Of a stretch of DNA of 64,000 bases, positions 1-46,356 are shown one piece after another; the first letter of the stretch is position 1, and each line of letters begins with the position of its first letter. Origin of the DNA: Telmatactis stephensoni. Taxonomy: Eukaryota > Cnidaria > Anthozoa > Actiniaria > Isophelliidae. The stretch spans positions 107,001 through 171,000 of the forward strand of contig JALIZF010001561.1 of NCBI GenBank assembly GCA_029948255.1, read 5' to 3'. The notes under the pieces were generated by a model that was not told the DNA's origin, made no database searches, and was given only the letters and a program-made list of their open reading frames with translations. Position numbers and translations under genes: made by a program.

Positions 1-2045
1 CAAATAAAATGGTTCATATTGTTATCGTGATCTCACTTACCCCAGCACTTGCCATTCCATGCACTGGTTGAATCATGCCTTGGCCAACCATGCCCTGTTG
101 ATACTGAAAGGAAAGCAATTTGTTACTCTCCAAACTTTTGCAAATAAAATGGTTCTATTGTTGACGTGATCTTACTTACTCCAACACTTGCCATTTCATG
201 CACTGGTTGAATCATGCCTTGGCCAACCATGCCCTGTTGATACTGAAAGGAAAGCAATTTGTTACTCTCCAAACTTTTGCAAATAAAATGGTTCTATTGT
301 TGACGTGATCTTACTTACTCCAACACTTGCCATTTCATGCAAAGGTTGAATCATGCCTTGGCCAACAATGCCCTGTTGATATTGAAAGGAAGGCAATTTG
401 TTACCCTTCCCAACTTTTGCAAATAAAATGGTTCTATTGTTGACGTGATCTTACTTACTCCAACACTTGCCATTTCATGCAAAGGTTGAATCATGCCTTG
501 GCCAACAATGCCCTGTTGATATTGAAAGGAAGGCAATTTGTTACCCTTCCCAACTTTTGCAAATAAAATGTGTACGAATGTTGACAAGATCTTACTTACC
601 CCAAAACGTGCTATTCCATGCACTGGTTGAGTCATGTCTTGGCCAACCATGCCCTGTTGATACTGAAAGGAAAGCAATTTGTTACCCTTCCCAACTTTTG
701 CAAATAAAATGGTTACGAATGTTGACGTGATCTTTTTTTACCCCAGCACTTGCCATTCCATGCACTGGTTGCATCATGCCTTGGCCAACCATGCCCTGTT
801 GATACTGAAAGGAAAGTAATCTGTTATCCTTCCCAACGTTTGCAAATAAAATGGTTCATATTGTTATCGTGATCTCACTTACCCCAGCACTTGCCATTCC
901 ATGCACTGGTTGAATCATGCCTTGGCCAACCATGCCCTGTTGATCCTGAAAGGAAAGCAATGTGTTACTCTCCAAACTTTTGCAAATAAAATGGTTCTAT
1001 TGTTGACGTGATCTTACTTACTCCAACACTTGCCATTTCATGCACTGGTTGAATCATGCCTTGGCCAACAATGCCCTGTTGATATTGAAAGGAAGGCAAT
1101 TTGTTACCCTTCCCAACTTTTGCAAATAAAATGTGTACGAATGTTGACAAGATCTTACTTACCCCAAAACGTGCCATTCTATGCACTGGTTGAATCATGC
1201 CTTGCCCAACCATGCCCTGTTGATACTGAAAGGAAAGCAATTTGTTACCCTTAGCTTCCCACCTTTTGCAAATAAAATGGTTACCAATGTTGATGTGATC
1301 TTTTTTACCCCAAAACGTTCCATTCCATGCACTGGCTGCATCATGCCTTCGTCAACCATGCCCTGTTGATACTGAAAGGAAAGCAATTTGTTATCCTTCC
1401 CAACGTTTGCAAATAGAATGATTTCTATTGTTCACAAGATCTTAATTACCCCAAAACGTGCCATTACATGTACTGGTTGAATCATGTCTTGGCCAAGAAT
1501 GCCCTGTTGATACTGAGAGGAAAACAATTTGTTACCCTTCCCAATGTTTGCAAATTAAATGGTTCCTATTGCTGACGTGATCTTACGTACTTCAGCACTT
1601 GCCATTCCATGCACTGGTTGAGTCATGCCTTGGCCAACAATGCCCTGTTGATGTTGAAAGGAAGGCAATTTGTTACCCTTCCCAACGTTTGCAAATAAAA
1701 TGGTTACGAATGTTAACAAGATCTTACTTACCCCAAAACGTGCCATTCTATGCACTGGTTGAATCATGCCTTGCCCAACCATGCCCTGTTGATACTGAAA
1801 GGAAAGCAATTTGTTATCCTTCCCAACGTTTGCAAATAGAATGATTTCTATTGTTTACAAGATCTTAATTTCCCCAGCACTTGCCATTCCATGCACTGGT
1901 TGAATCATGCCTTGGCCAACCATGCCCTGTTGATACTGAAAGGAAAGAAATTTGTTATCCTTCCCAACGTTTGCAAATAGAATGATTTCTATTGTTCACA
2001 AGATCTTAATTACCCCAGCACTTGCCATTCCATGCACTGGCCATG
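1..2045 (-). repeat. Tandem array of ~140-bp exon-plus-intron units (about 14.5 copies)
   Basis: A unit of 138-142 bp repeats from the left edge to about 2045, where the last copy is cut short. On the minus strand each unit has a pyrimidine tract ending TTTCAG, a 63-nt open segment, and GTAAGT, so it reads as acceptor, exon, donor. Exon segments lie near 41-103, 180-242, 319-381, 459-521, 600-662, 741-804, 883-945, 1022-1084, 1163-1225, 1308-1371, 1449-1513, 1591-1654, 1733-1795, 1873-1936 and 2014-2040 (partial). The acceptor AG is changed to AA in the copies ending near 381, 521, 1084 and 1654. The donor GT is lost in the copy at 1873. Neighbouring copies 319 and 459 are nearly identical, which points to recent local duplication. 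The array continues past the window edge. Confidence 0.95.
41..2040 (-). CDS. Partial gene with repeated 21-codon mini-exons (hypothetical repeat protein)
   Basis: Each full exon copy encodes 21 residues in phase 0, with a core like YQQGMVGQGMIQPVHGMA followed by a short variable end (ASAG, ASVG or ARFG type). Because the exon length is a multiple of three and both borders are phase 0, any number of copies can be spliced in or skipped without changing frame. Introns would be only about 77 nt. The predicted product is a Gly-, Gln- and Met-rich tandem repeat with no cysteine in the core, of the kind seen in disordered or structural proteins. I do not recognise the family. The 5' exons (toward higher coordinates) were not found, and the 3' part lies outside the window. 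It could instead be a satellite derived from one exon and no longer expressed. Splice signals kept in most copies favour a gene. Confidence 0.45.
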
Positions 2046-2050
2046 GTTGA

Positions 2051-3810
2051 ATCACGACGATCAGTTCATAAAAACAATGAAACAATGATTTTTAAGAAAT
2101 ATTCCAGGAAATGGGGATAAAGCGTGAAACTTCCACCAAGGACTTTTATAATTAAGCTTGTGCGTTAATGAGAATAACACTGAAGAATAGTGTATTTTTA
2201 CCTAAATACTTGTAGCATATAAAACGCATAAGCTGTACAACGCACTTGGCTTTTGCGAATGCTAAATTGAAATTGAAAGCTCATTAAAAATAATTGTTGC
2301 GTTTAAAAGTATCGTACTTGCTTGAAAATAAAGATATCTTCACTTTAAATAGGTGTATCGACCAAAGACGTTCTAGTAATGGCGTCGTAGAGTCCATTCC
2401 ACTGTCCAGGACCAAGGTCACGTGACATAAAATACTCCCAGTGACGTAATTGAGTCTTACGTCAAGTGCGCAAAACATTTAACGTTTTACCACAACTTTC
2501 AATTACACCTCGTGAGTCCATAACAAATTTTGGCCATGTGTTGACTAATATCGTGGTGAATAAGAGTACATACCACGGCTTTCTATTGTAAATTTGTTAA
2601 ATCTTCCTCATGGCGGCTGTTTTCCTCATTATCCTTGCTCTTTTTTAAACTTTTGTATTGCTATTCCACCCACGATTGGTTCCGATCTTCTAGTTTGAAA
2701 AGAACTAAAAATGGACAATAAATAGACAAAATAATTATATAAAGTTCGTGCTTTTGCAGTAATCGTTAGGCAGTACTCACAGTCACGTTATAATTGCGCT
2801 GCCAAATGCATTGTTTCACACGAAAGCTGCTTGCAAGCGTTGATGCACAGTTGCACTCCAAAAATATAATTGTCTTGCAACGGAAGGTTCATGTCAGCAA
2901 AGGCTTCTTGATTGCGGTGATTCACTCTGAAGTTTGGTTTAACCTAAGAAGATACAAAGACCTACTCTTAGACATCATGATCACTGAAAATCCATCTTCC
3001 ATCATTAACAAAATGGCATCCCAACGCATCTTTTTAGACCCATATTAATCATCAAGCTGTTGTTCCTTTTACATGACAACGATTACCAAAATGATGCTGA
3101 GTTAGAAACCGTAGCAAACGAAAACATTCCCATCCTGGTTGAAGGCTATGCGGAAGAATCATCGGGGAATTATCCCATTTTCTGTATTAAAAACTCACGA
3201 CAAGTTTAGCAAGAGTACAAAACATAAACTTGAATTAATACTTTGACAAATGATACCTATCTATGCAAGCGCTGCAAGACAGGCCAAATATGTATTGTCG
3301 TTTCAGCTGAAAAAATAAACGTAGTGTAGCATTTCCATAGTATACGTTGTTTCCAGAGAGGTATCATGTCAACAAAGGCTTCTTAAAAACTCCAATGTCC
3401 AATTTGCTTTCGACTTACTTTGTTTACATGTGTTGTATACATTGAAATCAGTCCAAACCGCAATCTTCAAATGTACTCACCCATTAATAATAAATCATAA
3501 TAATAATTAAAACACAATAAAATAAAAGTTCACTGGTGCATGAAGGACATCTTGGCTCAGTCGAGCTCATCCGCCCATTGTCGTTATCAAGCCTACGCGA
3601 CTCACCCGGAAGGGAGTATGGGAAGAAATCACTAAAGTTATTCCGAAAACCTCAAAATTTCCACATGATTACGGCTCAAATTCAGCTTGCTCTGACCTTA
3701 TACACTAAAGAACTTCTCGTACTGATGCTAAAGTCAATACCAAAGCGGAAAAGGAGATAAAGTTTTGAACTACCCATACTCCTTTGCGGTCTAGTCGCGT
3801 GGGCTTTAGA
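2051..3810. other. Intergenic DNA between exon array and LTR element
   Basis: No gene is supported here. Several short open frames exist (for example 2284-2478 minus and 2794-3048 plus), but none has a recognisable domain or convincing splice borders. A motif of about 20 bp around 2891-2912 recurs near 3366-3387. The 5' exons of the exon-array gene could be hidden here, but I could not identify a signal peptide exon. Confidence 0.4.
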
Positions 3811-3815
3811 GCTCT

Positions 3816-3969
3816 TGTAATGGTTTTACTTCCGTTGAGTTACTTCCGTTATGTTAATTAGAACACATGTTCTTTCAAGATGGCGGCTCGCGAGAGTTGT
3901 AATAAAGAGCCAACACAATCCATTCCATCTTGTTGTTTATCTGAGATATCCATCGTCGAAACCATAACA
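3816..3969 (+). repeat. 5' LTR
   Basis: 154 bp, starting TGTAATGG and ending CATAACA, matching the 3' LTR base for base as far as I can compare. It is short for a Gypsy LTR. It contains an AATAAA-like signal (AATAAAGAGCC) that could serve for polyadenylation. Confidence 0.95.
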
Positions 3970-3986
3970 TGGTGTCAGAAGTGGAC
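3970..3986 (+). other. Primer-binding site, tRNA-Leu type
   Basis: TGGTGTCAGAAGTGG directly follows the LTR end. It is complementary to the CCA-bearing 3' end of metazoan tRNA-Leu genes that end in CCCACTTCTGACA. This is where minus-strand DNA synthesis would be primed. Confidence 0.75.
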
Positions 3987-4071
3987 CTAATCCACACTCC
4001 AGGTTTGTCATTCTAGGTCGGAAGACACCGGGAAAGGAATATTTTTGTAAAGTTCAAGCTAAAGAAACAAG

Positions 4072-4806
4072 ATGACAACTAGTGAGCTCATCGCTGGATT
4101 ACCAGTACCAAGCATTGATTGGAATGCCCCAGAGGCGCCTCAGTTATTTAAGAAATTCAAAGCAAAATGTAGTTTAATCTTTGACGGTCCTCTCAAGGAC
4201 AAATCAGAAGAAGAGAAAGTTAATTATTTACTCCTTTGGTCGGGGGACGACGGCATTGAACTTGCATCAACATGGACACTTACTGAGGAAGAGAAAGGAA
4301 AGTTAGAGACATACTGGAAAAAATTTGAAGAATTTGTTGTGCCAAAGAGCAATTTCAGATTATCTAGATTCAAGTTAAGATCAATGAAGCAAGGAGCAGA
4401 AGAATCAGTGGATTTATTTGTAAAGAGACTCAGAGTTCTCATCCAAGAGTGTAAATTTGAAAAACCAGAGGAACACCTCATCGATGCATTGATTTTTGGA
4501 ACTAATTCTGACCTGGTTCGGTCAAAACTACTGAAAGAAACCACCATGACACTAGACTGAGGAATACACATAGCTCGTACAGAAGAAGCTACAAAAAGAA
4601 AAGTTCAAGGAATGAACTTATCAACCGACACAGCACAACTCCACATGATTAGCAAACCCAAACCAAATGTTAATGACAGCCCAGGGAGGGCAGATAATTC
4701 TAGAAAGGCAAATGTCACAAAGAAGAAATGCTGGAACTTTGGCTTAAGCCATAGTGTTTCAAAGAGAGAAAACTGTCCTGCTTATAATACAACTTGCCAT
4801 TCTTGA
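4072..4806 (+). pseudogene. gag: gag-like reading frame, interrupted
   Basis: The frame opens at ATG 4072 and runs 162 codons to an in-frame TGA at 4558-4560, then continues in the same frame to a second stop just after 4803. The first part resembles a retrotransposon capsid: a charged, helical protein with aromatic residues and a C-terminal helical stretch. The second part has a zinc-knuckle-like segment around 4730-4800 whose second expected cysteine is phenylalanine, and the next stop falls inside a second knuckle. These breaks imply that no full-length Gag is made from this copy without readthrough. Confidence 0.75.
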
Positions 4807-6101
4807 AACCGACTCAACCACTGGGCCAGCCAGTGCCGATCAAAATCCAACACAGCCCCCACAAGTAAGCCAGGTGCTAAGCAGGATGTCCACATGATTG
4901 AACAAAAGGAAAAAGAGCACCTCTATTTTAGCCCAATAACCGTTGATAACATTGACCAAGGTGCATCAGCACAGTCCATGGCACTCTTGGACATAAACAG
5001 CAGACAAATTGAATGCAGATAGACAGTGGTGATGAAGGCAATGGTATGCCTATTTCAACGCACGCAAGCAACGTTTCTTTCAGGATGTGGAAGTAACAGA
5101 TAGCACTACTATCATGGCCTATGGAAGAATTACTATCCAAAACTAAGGAAAATGTAACACGAGTATGAATCACAAGGATAAAAACCATTCAAGCTGTCTT
5201 CCATATTGTAGAGTCGACATGGTCCTGTCATACGTCATACTAGGTCTCAAATCTGTCAGGACGTGAAACTAATCACACTACACTGCACTCTGAACTCTAC
5301 TAAGCCACAACTAAGGCTCAAGGGTAGTCTGGAAGCAAAAGAGGAACTTTTTGAGAAATACAGTGATTGTTTCGATGGAATTGGTCGCTTTGAAGGGGAA
5401 TACCACATAGTGCTGGATGAGGAAGGTCACATCCAGTTGTGCACCCACCCGACGTATTCCTGAAGCTCTACGCGAACCATTCAAAGATGAGCTTAAATCT
5501 TTCATGTGCTAAAAGAATCTTGAAAAAGTTGATCAACCACAGACTGGTGAATTCATTTGTAATACCCACAAAGAGTGATGGGTCAATTAGACTATGCCTT
5601 GACCCAAAAAGATCTAAACAAAGCTATCAAACGACTCATCACTGCACACCAACACTAGAGGACATATTGGCTAAGCTTAATGGCGCTCATTATTTCTCAA
5701 TTGTGGATGCACGCAAGCGGTTACTGGAATATCAAGTTGGATGAGAAAGCTCCTATCTTACAACCTTCAATTCGCCCTTTGCTGAGGTACTCGCTTTTGC
5801 CGTTTACCATTTGGTCTCATCTGGTGCGCAAGATGTGTTCCAGAAAAAAGTAGATTTAACATTTGAGACTTGACTGGAGTGGCCTGCATAGCAGATGATA
5901 TTGTTGTGGGGCTGGATTCAAGAGGATGGAAGCGATCATGACTCAACCTGCAGGTACTCATGGCGAGAGCAAAAGCTACTGGAACCAAGTTTAACCTAGA
6001 TAAATGTGTAATAAAGAGCACCAGAATACCATTTTACGGGCACATTTTTAAGTGCAGACGGCCTCCAAGTTGATCCGTCGAAAGTAGAAGCCATCAATGC
6101 C
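4807..6101 (+). pseudogene. pol: Protease and reverse transcriptase part of pol, multiply frameshifted
   Basis: An Asp-Ser-Gly protease triad is encoded at 5022-5030 but soon hits stops. Reverse transcriptase remnants are spread over different frames: a segment at 5263-5463, another at 5439-5744 with the palm-domain start, and an Ala-Asp-Asp catalytic motif near 5890. The frame changes at least near 5450, 5720 and between 5750 and 6100. The polymerase is therefore not produced from one frame. Confidence 0.8.
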
Positions 6102-8087
6102 ATGGATCCATCCACCTCAGTCCAAGCCTTGCAGTCATTCCTTGGAGCAACACAGTACCTCAGCAGATTCATACCACATCTGGCTTCAGTAGCAGCGCCA
6201 TTATGGGATCTAGTTAAGAAATCAAGTGAGTTTGTCTGGAGTCCTGAACACCAAGCAGCTGTTGAAAAAGTCAAACAAGCTGTAGTAGCAACCACATCAC
6301 TCAAGTACTTTGATGGTAAGAAACCAGTAGTTGTTCAGGTTGATGCCTCACAACGTGGGCTCGGCGCTGTGCTTCTACAGGACAACCAACCTGTTGCCTA
6401 TGCTAGTAAGTTACTAACTGACACTGAAAGACGCTACTCAAATATTGAACGAGAAATGCTTGGAGTGGTGCATGGACTAGAGAGGTTTCACTATTACTGT
6501 TACGGCAGACCCGTAGTTGTCCAAACGGATCATAAACCACTCGAGGCAATTTCAAAGAAACATTTGTCGAGTGCACCTCCACGTATTTCAAGAATGCTAT
6601 TAAGAATTCAAAAGTATAATGCTGAAGTGAAGTATGTTCCTGGAAAGGAAATACCGCTTGCAGATGCCTTATCGCGCATCAACCCGTGTCCTGGGGAGGA
6701 GATTCCAGGACTTGATATCTCAATTCATGAACTACACTTACATTTGAATGCTTCATCCATCAGACTTGAACAGATCAAACATGAGACAGCAAATGACACT
6801 GATTTAGCTACACTAAGGAAAGTGATTACTGAGGGCTGGCCAAACACGAGGTCAGAATGTCCATCAAACCTGCATGCATATTGGAATTATCGAGATGAGT
6901 TAACTGTTGCTGATGGTATAGTTTTAAAGGGACTTAGGATTATCATCCCTAAAGCAATTCGAAATGAAGTACTTAACCAGTTACATTATGGTCATCAAGG
7001 CTCTGAGAAGTGTAAGTTACGTGCCAAAGGCTCTGTGTTTTGGCCCAATATCAACCAGGACATCGACGATATGGTAAAAGAGTGTACCCCATGTCAGCGT
7101 CATCAGAAGCAAAACATCAAAGAACCCATGATTCCACATGATATACCTCAGAAGCCCTGGCATACTCTTGGAGCAGATCTGTTTTACTGGAACAGTTCAC
7201 ACTATTTGCTTGTTTGTGACTATTATAGCAAATATCCTCTCGTACGAAAACTGGCCAATTGTGAATCTAGCACCACCATAGCTCATATGAAAAGCATGTT
7301 TGAAGAGCATGGGATACCAGACAAGCTGGTTACTGGTAATGACACTCAGTTTACCTCTGAGATATTTCAGAAGTTCAGTTTTACTTATGGATTCAGTCAT
7401 GTGACTACGTCACCATACTACCCACAAGCCAATGGGTTCATTGAGCGTAATGTACAAACAGTTAAAAATTTGTTCCAAAAATGTAAGGAAACAGGGGAGG
7501 ATCCCCACTTAGCAATGTTATGTCTCCGAACAACTCCGCTGGACCATACTTTGTTGTCACCAGCAGAACTATTAAATTCAAGAGTGTACAAAACAAACTT
7601 GCCATCAATTTCTAAAGCAAGTGTTGGACTCTCAGCCAACGGAGATGTAAACAAGAACCTTCAAGAAAGACAGGACAAGCAGAAGTTTGCTTATGATAGC
7701 ACTGCAAAGCCCTCACCACCATTACAGACACGTGAACCAGTTCGAGTATTCAACCCTAAAACTCACATATGGCAGCCAGGTATTGTCAAGGACACCACTC
7801 TACACCCTCGGTCTTACATGGTTGCCATGGAAAATGGCAATGTCCTGCGTAGAAACCGTCGACATCTGCACAGAACTAGTGAAAGATTCCCCGATATTGG
7901 TAGTGTACCAGTAGACAGTGACCTCACAGCTACTGAGAGAGAAAGGGCATCGAATATGGAAGAGAATGACTTTAAAGACATTGTCAATGACAAAACAGTT
8001 GAACAGTCAGGTGGATCTCAAACATTCTTGAGGCGTTCAACACGCACAAGGAAGCCACCCGACAGACTAGGATTTGAAAATAATTAA
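6102..8087 (+). CDS. pol: RNase H and integrase part of retrotransposon pol (open, 661 codons)
   Basis: The first ~90 residues are the end of the reverse transcriptase connection (pattern LQSFLGATQYLSRFIP). Next comes an RNase H domain with the DASQRGLGAVL motif, the ERRYSNIEREMLGVV helix and QTDHKPLEA. An H2C2 zinc-binding region follows (H-Y-G-H ... C-T-P-C-Q-R), then an integrase core with acidic residues in GADLF, in a changed form of the usual SDNG block (TGNDTQFTS), and in NGFIERNVQ. A basic C-terminal tail ends the protein. The first ATG is simply the first in the open stretch; in the intact element this is the C-terminal part of a polyprotein. The nearby duplicated LTRs show that it belongs to the retrotransposon, not to the host. 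Confidence 0.9.
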   Translation: MDPSTSVQALQSFLGATQYLSRFIPHLASVAAPLWDLVKKSSEFVWSPEHQAAVEKVKQAVVATTSLKYFDGKKPVVVQVDASQRGLGAVLLQDNQPVAYASKLLTDTERRYSNIEREMLGVVHGLERFHYYCYGRPVVVQTDHKPLEAISKKHLSSAPPRISRMLLRIQKYNAEVKYVPGKEIPLADALSRINPCPGEEIPGLDISIHELHLHLNASSIRLEQIKHETANDTDLATLRKVITEGWPNTRSECPSNLHAYWNYRDELTVADGIVLKGLRIIIPKAIRNEVLNQLHYGHQGSEKCKLRAKGSVFWPNINQDIDDMVKECTPCQRHQKQNIKEPMIPHDIPQKPWHTLGADLFYWNSSHYLLVCDYYSKYPLVRKLANCESSTTIAHMKSMFEEHGIPDKLVTGNDTQFTSEIFQKFSFTYGFSHVTTSPYYPQANGFIERNVQTVKNLFQKCKETGEDPHLAMLCLRTTPLDHTLLSPAELLNSRVYKTNLPSISKASVGLSANGDVNKNLQERQDKQKFAYDSTAKPSPPLQTREPVRVFNPKTHIWQPGIVKDTTLHPRSYMVAMENGNVLRRNRRHLHRTSERFPDIGSVPVDSDLTATERERASNMEENDFKDIVNDKTVEQSGGSQTFLRRSTRTRKPPDRLGFENN

Positions 8088-8128
8088 TTTGACATTTTGT
8101 TATTTCACTGTTGCAGTTTGTATTGTTG

Positions 8129-8144
8129 AAAAGGAAGGGGAGGA
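8129..8144 (+). other. Polypurine tract
   Basis: A run of A and G only (AAAAGGAAGGGGAGGA) directly abuts the 3' LTR, the expected primer site for plus-strand synthesis. Confidence 0.85.
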
Positions 8145-8298
8145 TGTAATGGTTTTACTTCCGTTGAGTTACTTCCGTTATGTTAATTAGAACACATGTT
8201 CTTTCAAGATGGCGGCTCGCGAGAGTTGTAATAAAGAGCCAACACAATCCATTCCATCTTGTTGTTTATCTGAGATATCCATCGTCGAAACCATAACA
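8145..8298 (+). repeat. 3' LTR
   Basis: Starts TGTAATGG and ends CATAACA, same length as the left LTR and with no visible differences. It is followed by the GCTCT target duplication. Confidence 0.95.
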
Positions 8299-42937: not shown

Positions 42938-45900
42938 TCAATGATTCTTTACATGTACAATTTTCAAAAAAATTGGAGACTTTGGTCTCAACATAGTAAA
43001 TGACACCAACGACAGTGGTTTGGTTTCGGGTGAATTTTCAAATCGAAAACCAGCATCAAGAACTTTAACCAGTAAAATCTTCATAATCATCATTGCATAT
43101 CGACTTCCGATACACTGCCGAGGACCTTCTCCGAACGGTAGGTATGAAAACGGATGCCTCTTCAACACCTCTCCGGGATGGAATCGTTCGGGGTTAAATG
43201 TAAAAGGCTCAGGCCATATTTCTGGATCGTGGTGGATTGCATATGCAAGAATATTAACAGGAGTACCTTTAGGGAACTTAATACCATCTATAATGCATTC
43301 TTCGACAGCTTTTCTTAAATGCCTGTGTCCCGGGGAACACATCCGCATGACTTCTTTAAGCACCCAATCCAGGTAGACGATTGAGTGGGCGAGCTCATAA
43401 ACGCTGCCACTGTGGTTTTCTTTAATTTAGCCATTTGTATTTCCTGGACTAACTTTTCCTGGACAAGTTGGTTGGTGGCCAGGAAGTAGCACGTGCAAAT
43501 GAGAACAGTAGAGGTGGTGTCGTAACCAGCGGCCAGGAAACTCAACGAAACTCCTTTCATTTCATCATCATTCAAGCGGCTTTCACCGTCCACTACTGTT
43601 TTATTGGCATCAATCATTAATTGTGCGACATCGTAACGACCAATGTATCCATATTGTTGACGTTCACGGATTATTGCACTGTAAACAAATATCACAAAGT
43701 AGATTAGTAGTTATTTTTTTACAACACTTGATACTAATCTCGCGATCTGATTGGTTGATTAGAGTGTGTCAATAAGAGGACACACACTGCTGACGCGTTT
43801 CAGCCAGCGCGCGCGCTCGTTCTGTTGGCCCGATTGAAAAGGATTTTTTAACTTTTATCTCAAATAATTGTTGTAAAAAACGAATTGAAGATGGTTTTGA
43901 GTTGTCTGTCCTCTTATTGACACACTCTTGACGCCATAAAAATGTTCTAAATCAAACGTCGTTGGAGGGCGAAACAAAAATTAAGGCTACAATACGGTGC
44001 AATATTTTCTGAAAACTTGTCTCGCAATGGCGTTTCAAAACAAGTTGCACTGCCATTGCAGGGTCGTTACACGACGCAAAGTGTTGCTCCAATTGTTTTC
44101 TCGCAATGATTTTGAGCGATTGAAACTTAATTAAACTTAATTAAAAAAAGATTTTGAGCGATGCAGGGTTTGTTACACCCTGCAACAATATAATGGGTCC
44201 TAAAACTTGTTTACGTCATTGCGAGACAAATTGCAGAGAAAAAACTGTACCGTGTAACAGCGCCTTTAAATAAACGAATCGAACAAACAAATAAACTAAC
44301 AAACAAAGAAGCATTATACATAAGCGTGCCATTAAACTTACTTCACTCGTTCACTAGTCTGTTTGCACATTCTCCGACTGGCACTAATCCATATGCGCTT
44401 TGGCCGCTAACAGGACAGACTAGTGCAAAATGAATGTTAAAAACAACTGGTCTTCGTATATACTTTTAAACCAAAACGTTTCCGGCCCTTTTACTGCATG
44501 ACAAGTCCAATGAATTTTTGCTAAGAGCAAAAGGCCATATCTGCATAAGGCGAATTCCTCTTCCTTTATCCCTCCCTTGTTCAGTACGTACTTCATAGTG
44601 ACCTTGCTACAGGCTTTCAGTTGGGGATAGGGGAGGGGAGGCGGAGGGGGAAGGGCAAGGGAAACCCTCCCCAAGCCCTCTCCCTACCGCCCTCTCTCCT
44701 CCCTCCCAAGAACCTGTTCAGAGACTAGTTACCTTGCTAGATCCATGAAATACCCAGCGTTTCCCAACACATCAACGTACTTTGGAATCAAACCACCAAA
44801 TGGTAAAAAGGACGCTAAAGCTGTCCAAACTGGACGACTAAAGAGAGTGTTAGCACGATTGATCACTGTTCTGTCTTGCCCAGTTTGCAGTTCTGTGGTA
44901 TCAACGCCAAACGAACTGGAGAGAATGACGTCGAGTATGCAAAGCTTTATCAAGTCTGTCATCTCTACACTTTCACCTGGAAAATGGAAATATAATAAGT
45001 TAAGTGGAAACCAGTGGAAACTCTTGAACATGTATCCCTTCTATCAAATAGCGCCGTTTGGTATTTTCTTCTACATGAAGCTGCTGGAGCATAATTCCCC
45101 TCCACTAACTCTTTAAAACTTATCAGACGATAAAACAAAACTTATTTCTGATAATGATATAGGGATCAAACTTTACTCTGACACAATATTTTGAACTTCA
45201 AGATATGAAGCAATGGCAAGCAAAATCGTGAATGAAAGGCCATTCGATCATGACACAGGAAGCCCAAACTGATGGGTTCCAATTAGTGACGTGTTGGTAA
45301 TGACTTCCACTGCTTAATGCACCTTATATATAAATTTTGCGTCCACAATATAACTCGAAAGTGCGGAGTTCTGGTCCTTGTTTCAACTTTATACTGCTGA
45401 CTTTCATCTGAGGGTACCTTCGATTTAAATAATTATCCACAGCGGTAGGTAGACTGCTTATGTCTCACAGGTCTCAGTATTTTTTTCCATGTCAACATAA
45501 AATTTCTTGCATTCGATATGAAAATGCATTTCAAACCAAAACACAGACATGCGCAAGCAAATTGCATAAAAATTAAGCTGCGTGATGCGTGACTGTACCT
45601 GTGCGTGATACGTGATTAATGTAGGCGCTTGTAATTAATTAATGTCACCGATCACTCGGGTCAATATTATTGAATTAGTCAATAAAAGCTTGGCTGTGCA
45701 AATCGCTTGGAATAAACTCTAATTTCTTTTAAAAAATTGTAGCTTAGTAGTAAGATTTCAAGTGAACAGTACTAATTTATTATGTCCAACATATCGGATT
45801 CCAAGTCAGACAAGTGTACTAACCAGTCGTTGAATACTTTTCCAACTTTGAAATCAGTCGCCTTGCGGCATCTTCTACCAATTGAGCAGTTCCCTTCAGC

Positions 45901-46356
45901 TTTGCTGCACTAAACACCGGACTTACAACTTTACGAACTCGTTTCCATTTAGTGTACTTCGATACAAATAACTCTGAATCTATCGGGGGAGGGAGCTCAA
46001 AAGACAATCCACGATTACGGAACTTGTAGAACTCTTTTACCATTAATCTTCTTGGCCATTTCTGGGTCTGCAACACAAATAGTTGGTTTCCTGCCATAGA
46101 AACGAGCCTGGAAGACCTTGCCGTATTGTCTGGTGAGTTCATATTGAAGTCTGTGAGAGCCTTGATATTTTACGATAGAATACGCGTGTGATATGGCGCT
46201 CAGAGGAAATGGATAGTGATTTGGTCCTGGTAGAGATGTTTCAGATGGATTTTTGAAGTAGATGTAAAGAGAGACTAGTAAAACCAGCAAAATTACTGGT
46301 ACCAATGCGGATGAAGTCAAATTCAAAGTATCAACAAAAGGAAACATTATACTCAC
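42938..46356 (-). CDS. Cytochrome P450, CYP3-clan-like, with two one-base frame breaks
   Basis: Four coding exons: 45824-46356, 44733-44976, 44342-44371 (only 30 nt) and 42938-43678, about 512 codons in all. An N-terminal membrane anchor (VPVILLVLLVSLYIYF) is followed by the Pro-rich hinge LPGPNHYPFP, the I-helix AGYDTTS, the K-helix ExxR in KEVMRM, and the haem-binding loop FGEGPRQCIG with its cysteine ligand. It should be an ER-bound haem monooxygenase; the substrate is unknown. AGYDTT and the overall pattern suggest the CYP3 clan. The frame is broken by one extra base near 46043-46047 and one missing base near 43416-43424, both in otherwise well-conserved stretches. Start ATG may be 46356 or 46347. 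It is either a young pseudogene or an intact gene with assembly errors. Confidence 0.88.
43981..44270. mobile_element. MITE with AAGGCGCTGTTACA-type ends, copy 2
   Basis: It starts TTAAGGCTACAATACGGTGC and ends GTGTAACAGCGCCTTTAA, with repeated AACTTGT and GCAATG words inside. It lies in the P450 intron before the last exon. Confidence 0.7.

Follow-up and report, generated by a model that had tools for sequence, protein, structure and literature searches.

The left edge of the window, by which we mean the entire 64 000-nt stretch of Telmatactis stephensoni DNA analysed here (contig JALIZF010001561.1, designated C380, positions 107001-171000), is occupied by an array of ∼141-bp units that resembles a satellite. 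The question is whether this array is non-coding tandem DNA or, as the original prediction proposed, a row of mini-exons on the minus strand, each with its own intron. We examined the units themselves, their distribution over the genome (483.5 Mb, 1782 contigs) and the exons that flank them; taken together, the evidence is best read as pointing to tandem mini-exons of a protein gene, which we regard as probable.

Anatomy and genomic distribution of the array

TRF recognized one array at positions 1-2040 of the window (period 141, 14.5 copies, 88% matches). Its components, and the two related arrays found elsewhere in the genome, are as follows (paired motifs are acceptor and donor).

1..2045, minus strand: tandem array, running on past the left window edge to C380:105864; 14 full units and a truncated one in the window, unit spacing 139-146 bp
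2014..2045, minus strand: remnant of the truncated unit, 3' part of the exon, which carries 6 extra nt in frame; donor GTAATT, acceptor not seen
1873..1935, minus strand: unit 1 exon, YQQGMVGQGMIQPVHGMASAG; acceptor TTTCAG, broken donor GAAATT
1732..1794, minus strand: unit 2 exon; TTTCAG and GTAAGT
1591..1653, minus strand: unit 3 exon; TTTCAA (first acceptor lost), CAACAG kept, donor GTACGT
1450..1512, minus strand: unit 4 exon; TCTCAG and GTAATT
1309..1371, minus strand: unit 5 exon; TTTCAG and GTAAAA
1163..1225, minus strand: unit 6 exon; TTTCAG and GTAAGT
1022..1084, minus strand: unit 7 exon; TTTCAA (first acceptor lost), CAACAG kept, donor GTAAGT
883..945, minus strand: unit 8 exon; TTTCAG and GTAAGT
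742..804, minus strand: unit 9 exon; TTTCAG and GTAAAA
600..662, minus strand: unit 10 exon; TTTCAG and GTAAGT
459..521, minus strand: unit 11 exon; TTTCAA (first acceptor lost), CAACAG kept, donor GTAAGT
319..381, minus strand: unit 12 exon; TTTCAA (first acceptor lost), CAACAG kept, donor GTAAGT
180..242, minus strand: unit 13 exon; TTTCAG and GTAAGT
41..103, minus strand: unit 14 exon; TTTCAG and GTAAGT
∼C354:339408-342284: second array, 20 full units
∼C1019:33034-33448: third array, short and diverged, 2 full units and a variant first exon

A 63-nt segment is present in all 14 full units of the window and is open in phase 0 in every one of them, in the frame originally predicted, encoding YQQGMVGQGMIQPVHGMASAG and its variants. 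The accompanying claim that nearly every unit combines this segment with TTTCAG and GTAAGT holds for the open segment but not for the motifs, which occur together in six of the 14 units. The acceptor site reads TTTCAG in nine units, TCTCAG in one and TTTCAA in four (units 3, 7, 11 and 12), so that 10 of the 14 have a CAG; the donor site reads GTAAGT in nine, another GT in four and GA in one (unit 1), giving a GT in 13 of the 14. With some units lacking this acceptor and one lacking a donor, the use of every unit is not supported. Nor is an exon of exactly 21 codons, because a second acceptor, CAACAG, lies 9 nt inside the exon and is also in frame; with the 54-nt exon that it would define, either 18 or 21 codons are possible.

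Following the array leftwards, a check that the original prediction had suggested, brought the number of full units on C380 to 22 in total. The 5' edge of the C380 array falls within an exon. The majority consensus of the window units contains a complete phase-0 mini-exon, and a pattern of this kind, defined post hoc with the array already seen, appeared in 0 of 5000 dinucleotide shuffles under strict rules and in 43 of 5000 under lenient ones (either strand). In a control set of circularised 141-bp slices from the rest of the window, 1 of 1315 passed the strict rules and 27 of 1315 the lenient ones.

The unit was found at three or more loci (C380, C354 and C1019, ∼0.4-3.2 kb each) in the 483-Mb genome, this and the other locus counts given here being lower bounds because the search passes over very common words and scores the best candidates. 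A six-frame protein search recovered the repeat on C380 and C354, together with four weak rows on C124 (28-31%); the latter overlap an open reading frame on the other strand that encodes a Ser/Glu/Lys/Pro repeat and were taken as chance matches. Long satellite blocks at many non-genic loci, the finding named beforehand as speaking against a gene, were looked for, and with three loci found (a lower bound) the unit is not a dispersed satellite. Within loci, multi-unit blocks of exon plus intron have been copied: C380 units 8-12 are 0.986-1.0 identical to units 14-18, and C354 units 4-6 are identical (1.0) to units 13-15. These near-identical blocks support the predicted growth of the array through exchange of exon-plus-intron units.

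Splice signals and possible coding character of the repeat units

For the tests described below, the 22 full units of C380 and the 20 of C354 were combined into a set of 42. Each of them consists of an open, phase-0 (symmetric) exon with its own similar intron, 76-88 nt long between mini-exons and 78 nt in the consensus. A donor GT is present in 41 of the 42 units, if a 3-nt in-frame insertion is allowed in the last C380 unit, a level of conservation that 39 of the unit's 140 dinucleotides equal or exceed. Of the acceptors, the first survives in 34 of the 42 units (equalled or exceeded by 99 of 140 dinucleotides) and the AG of the second, CAACAG, in 39 of 42 (64 of 140). One or both acceptors are found in all 42 units, and the two are never lost together, as expected by chance from losses of 8/42 and 3/42. 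Upstream of the acceptor there is a TAAC in 41 of 42 units and a 12-nt pyrimidine tract with at least eight pyrimidines per unit (mean 10.7); the GT-AG ends, the TAAC and the tract would correspond to intron termini, a branch-point-like element and a polypyrimidine tract. In the 2 full units of C1019 the first acceptor reads TTTCGG and CAACAG is kept. We rate the second acceptor no lower than the first as the point where the exon truly begins.

Special conservation of the splice sites relative to the rest of the unit was not found, and in the 14 units at positions 1-2045, 52 of 141 circular 63-column windows matched or surpassed the exon in conservation. On this account, and on its typical tandem behaviour, the array could be taken for a plain non-coding satellite or minisatellite with splice-like motifs arising by chance. 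That reading appears very unlikely in view of the three loci found in 483 Mb (a lower bound), the lack of a complete mini-exon in all 5000 strict shuffles and the constrained paralogous exons, in matching phase, that lie downstream (see below).

Several observations are consistent with coding exons. There are no stops in the 42 repeat exons, where ∼3.9 would be expected from 104 parsimony changes on the assumption of uniform substitution (P 0.021). Indels, in events tallied by eye, are triplets in 3 of 3 cases in the exon and 2 of 11 in the intron (Fisher P 0.027). Divergence is lower in the exon than in the rest of the unit in each pair of loci: 0.112 vs 0.160 for C380-C354, 0.231 vs 0.346 for C380-C1019 and 0.238 vs 0.339 for C354-C1019.

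The unit length is also a multiple of three (141 = 3 x 47), and the array might instead be translated unspliced, in repeats of 47 residues. The intron of the consensus (78 nt) can be read through in frame, open frames around the matches reach 241 aa and stop-to-stop stretches extend to 206 residues on C380 and 186 on C354. We nevertheless give this reading hardly any chance, the slimmest of those considered here: 26 of the 40 introns, as segments between exons, contain an in-frame stop or have a frame-breaking length, whereas the exon segments have no stop in 42 and a triplet as their sole length change.

At the amino-acid level no constraint was seen in the repeats (pN/pS 0.85-3.4). The ratio is 0.95 for the 14 units of the window, 1.06 within C380, 3.43 within C354, 1.57 between C380 and C354, and 0.85 in comparisons to C1019; distinct changes over the 42 units comprise 36 non-synonymous vs 7 synonymous. 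One study reportedly deals with strongly relaxed selection acting on protein repeats (PMC5120217), which would fit a pN/pS near 1. Weak constraint would be expected from redundant symmetric exons and equally from a dead array, a possibility to which we return after describing the flanking regions.

Flanking exons and related genes

Of the unique coding exons that would flank the array, those on the 3' side, and a stop, were found; for the 5' side there is a candidate, in C354 and C1019 only. Downstream, the C380 and C354 arrays are followed by a common 63-nt, phase-0 exon, NLAGQASLLQIGVA[Y/S]PSSDVE, with the GC donor GCAAGT. A single residue of this exon distinguishes C380 from C354, and frame and splice sites are kept. 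A terminal exon with a stop comes next, MTSPSSSPSSSSSSSST or MASPSSSST, the two versions differing by a 24-nt in-frame gap. At the matching place in a further copy on C1019 there is an exon EIADRLSELQIREPSLPSDVE, likewise of 63 nt in phase 0 but with GT as its donor. The penultimate intron accordingly begins with GCAAGT in C380 and C354 (L009:8401-8406 and L012:3150-3155) and with GTAAGT in the C1019 copy, a GC-AG/GT-AG switch. Upstream of this EIADRL exon on C1019 (L037:5081-9951), long satellites with a period of 10-40 bp, of the TACCATGCCT type, stand where other copies have mini-exons.

The C1019 array leads into a different phase-0 exon, DNFG... (DNFGSSENGNPVSQCSDESTTCTP, 72 nt), followed by VVFG... 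(51 nt), IVFG... (45 nt; 48 nt in the gene to the left on C380) and a terminal exon VDFN.... This DNFG/VVFG/IVFG/VDFN set is common to the C1019 gene and the next gene leftward on C380. The latter (L010:8067-9030 = C380:95366-96329, minus strand) carries a long acidic repeat of 21-nt units, (DEDSSG[S/N])n. Its reading frame stays open as far as a phase-0 GTGAGT donor, after which come the DTFG/VVFG/IVFG/VDFN exons; farther upstream the frame of the acidic repeat is lost at an insertion. The DNFG-type exon was found at five places in the genome, at least that many being present as the best candidates were scored.

The selection tests concern these constant exons of the family, not the repeat exons. 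Pooled over the exon set, pN/pS between the C1019 gene and the leftward C380 gene is 0.37 (P 0.038). For the DNFG exon against its relative on C40, which is one codon shorter, pN/pS is 0.15-0.32, with P between 1.5e-5 and 0.006, across nine comparisons, namely three exons, each scored over 20 codons alone or with the missing codon put at one or the other of two positions. The comparison of EIADRLSELQIREPSLPSDVE with NLAGQASLLQIGVA (the EIAD/NLAG exon) is weaker, with synonymous changes at 9 of 15.3 sites vs non-synonymous ones at 16 of 47.7 (P 0.078). Divergence between the C1019 and leftward C380 genes is similar overall in exons (17 of 219 aligned sites) and introns (146 of 1423), so that it is the codon test, rather than overall identity, that carries the point about selection. 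Judged by these codon comparisons, the small phase-0 constant exons of the family show purifying selection.

Upstream of the array, the following block has paralogues beside the related genes.

2599..3410, minus strand: upstream block, 83% to both C1019:84291-85152 and C40:3109-3970, with weaker matches in C354, C1019 and the block of the leftward C380 gene

No conserved reading frame was seen in this block, nor one conserved in all the related upstream blocks of C380, C354 and C1019. A hydrophobicity scan pointed to a candidate start exon, ME[P/S]SLRKGFVIVIYSL, in C354 and C1019; it is short and hydrophobic and has a phase-0 donor. The candidate is not intact in either of the two C380 blocks, and in the further C1019 copy it has an 11-nt insertion that is absent from the C40 counterpart. 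A signal-peptide exon considered farther upstream was dropped, its frame not being kept.

Farther upstream, positions 3576-3815 are part of a high-copy dispersed repeat: a first look with the whole 1770-base query gave at least 2620 candidates, and most of the best 40 of the 2620 match here at 88-90%. Next to it lies an LTR element (3816-8298) whose two 154-bp LTRs show 100% identity, with what looks like a 5-bp target duplication (GCTCT). It contains a pol-like ORF (named by eye) of 661 aa at 6102-8087 and is a recent insertion, placed between the array and any exons that may lie upstream. Elsewhere in the window, segment 18486-26393 is similar in several pieces (82-95%), and in the same orientation, to C1019:35794-42323 (L014), as a segmental duplication or a mobile element adjoining genes of the family.

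That no frame was seen in common among the upstream blocks, and that the start-exon candidate is confined to C354 and C1019, counts against the gene reading, as do the lack of amino-acid constraint in the repeats and of special conservation at the splice sites. Since its 5' edge is truncated inside an exon, the C380 copy may be partly degenerate. This truncation and the upstream block with no conserved frame would fit a dead or dying array, in which the exon-plus-intron repeat of an ancestral gene has become a non-functional minisatellite at this locus, the remnant of a pseudogene severed from its 5' exons. A repeat pN/pS of about 1 would fit as well, as would the damage to one donor and the loss of the first acceptor in six of the 22 C380 units. 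This decay would, however, have left none of 42 units with a stop and exon indels that are all triplet-sized, and it would have spared a downstream exon that is one residue apart between C380 and C354 with its frame and splice sites kept; we consider it a possible but unlikely account.

A probable gene of tandem mini-exons and known genes of similar layout

The reading of a repeat-protein gene draws on the small number of loci, the phase-0 downstream exons with a stop, the constrained paralogous exons, the triplet exon indels and the absence of stops in all 42 units, and the neighbourhood, meaning the shared downstream exons and the constrained exons of the family, weighs most; to this extent the original prediction is borne out. 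The array would then be the repeat-coding middle of a minus-strand protein gene, one of a small local family, in which each ∼141-bp unit is a symmetric phase-0 exon (63 or 54 nt) with a GT-AG intron of 76-88 nt. Spliced together, the units would encode ∼20 repeats of 18 or 21 residues each, rich in Gly, Gln and Met, in a predicted protein that would contain GMVGQGMIQPVHGMASAG-type peptides and end with the phase-0 exon NLAGQASLLQIGVA[Y/S]PSSDVE and the terminal Ser/Pro-rich exon with its stop. With symmetric exons, duplication, deletion or skipping of whole units would leave the frame intact, so that loss of a splice site in single units would be tolerated, and the array would turn over by exchange of unit blocks. 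Transcription, splicing, translation and any function of the array we infer from genomic sequence, and a secreted or structural nature of the product is guessed from its composition.

If the array is transcribed, it shows that a 'minisatellite' of 141-bp units can consist of closely packed, alternating mini-exons and mini-introns; such loci might escape gene annotation where repeats are masked. The array would then provide a compact natural test of splicing through ∼20 near-identical short introns and would show how symmetric exons allow an array to expand without damage to the frame.

The original prediction named no described family for the repeat, and none was found in the protein, Pfam, PDB and literature searches given here. 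Neither the 14 exons (294 aa) nor a 693-aa concatenation had protein homologues at E up to 10, with ∼8000 candidates scored in each case. Pfam gave no repeat match above the cut-off (best UPF0175, E 0.19), PDB gave no repeat matches at E up to 10, and no Rfam family reached its gathering score; pattern scans of viral and bacterial/archaeal contigs gave 0 hits, plasmids no match, and a limited literature search no match to the repeat motif. As a control query we used the cytochrome P450 (CYP3A-like) gene of the window (42938-46356, minus strand, several exons), stitched by hand from window ORFs with approximate exon ends; its best match was Nematostella vectensis (57%), and no named stony coral occurred among the best 120 of 204 matches, many rows being nameless. 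The protein collection thus appears to lack close relatives, which qualifies the claim of novelty: the negative protein searches say little about corals.

Similar layouts are known elsewhere; no description of the protein family was found. The SmPoMuc genes of Schistosoma mansoni form a clustered family of 15 exons averaging ∼60 bp, in which a 27-bp exon with its flanking introns is repeated in tandem up to ∼20 times, and the copies differ in repeat number (PMC2576457). They resemble the array in being a gene family in clusters with a small exon and its introns repeated in tandem. Their units are ∼1 kb long and contain microsatellites, with intronic parts >94% identical (PMC2576457), as against a unit of 141 bp and an intron of ∼78 nt here; the exon length and the repeat peptide differ too. 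For SmPoMuc, transcripts and a case for trans-splicing have been reported (PMC2576457), whereas the array described here is known from genomic sequence alone.

The SOWgp gene of Coccidioides, as described in the same source, has repeated exons with associated introns that are nearly identical and subject to concerted evolution (PMC2576457). By that description it shares with the array repeated exons that have their own introns and differs in being fungal and single copy. In spiders, the silk genes Flag and MaSp2 encode repetitive proteins with multiple introns that are near-identical within a gene, and the introns of other silk genes measure 496-2620 bp (PMC3522626). The likeness to Flag and MaSp2 is again one of layout, near-identical introns in a repeat gene; the introns of the other silk genes are far longer. 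In layout, then, the array resembles SmPoMuc, SOWgp and Flag.

A bolder and doubtful extension is that the family forms a cluster of fast-changing cnidarian genes whose common small phase-0 exons carry interchangeable repeats (Gly/Gln/Met here, acidic Asp/Ser/Gly/Glu next door). Turnover, skipping and two acceptors (18 or 21 residues) might then generate variable proteins, much like the polymorphic mucins of schistosomes.
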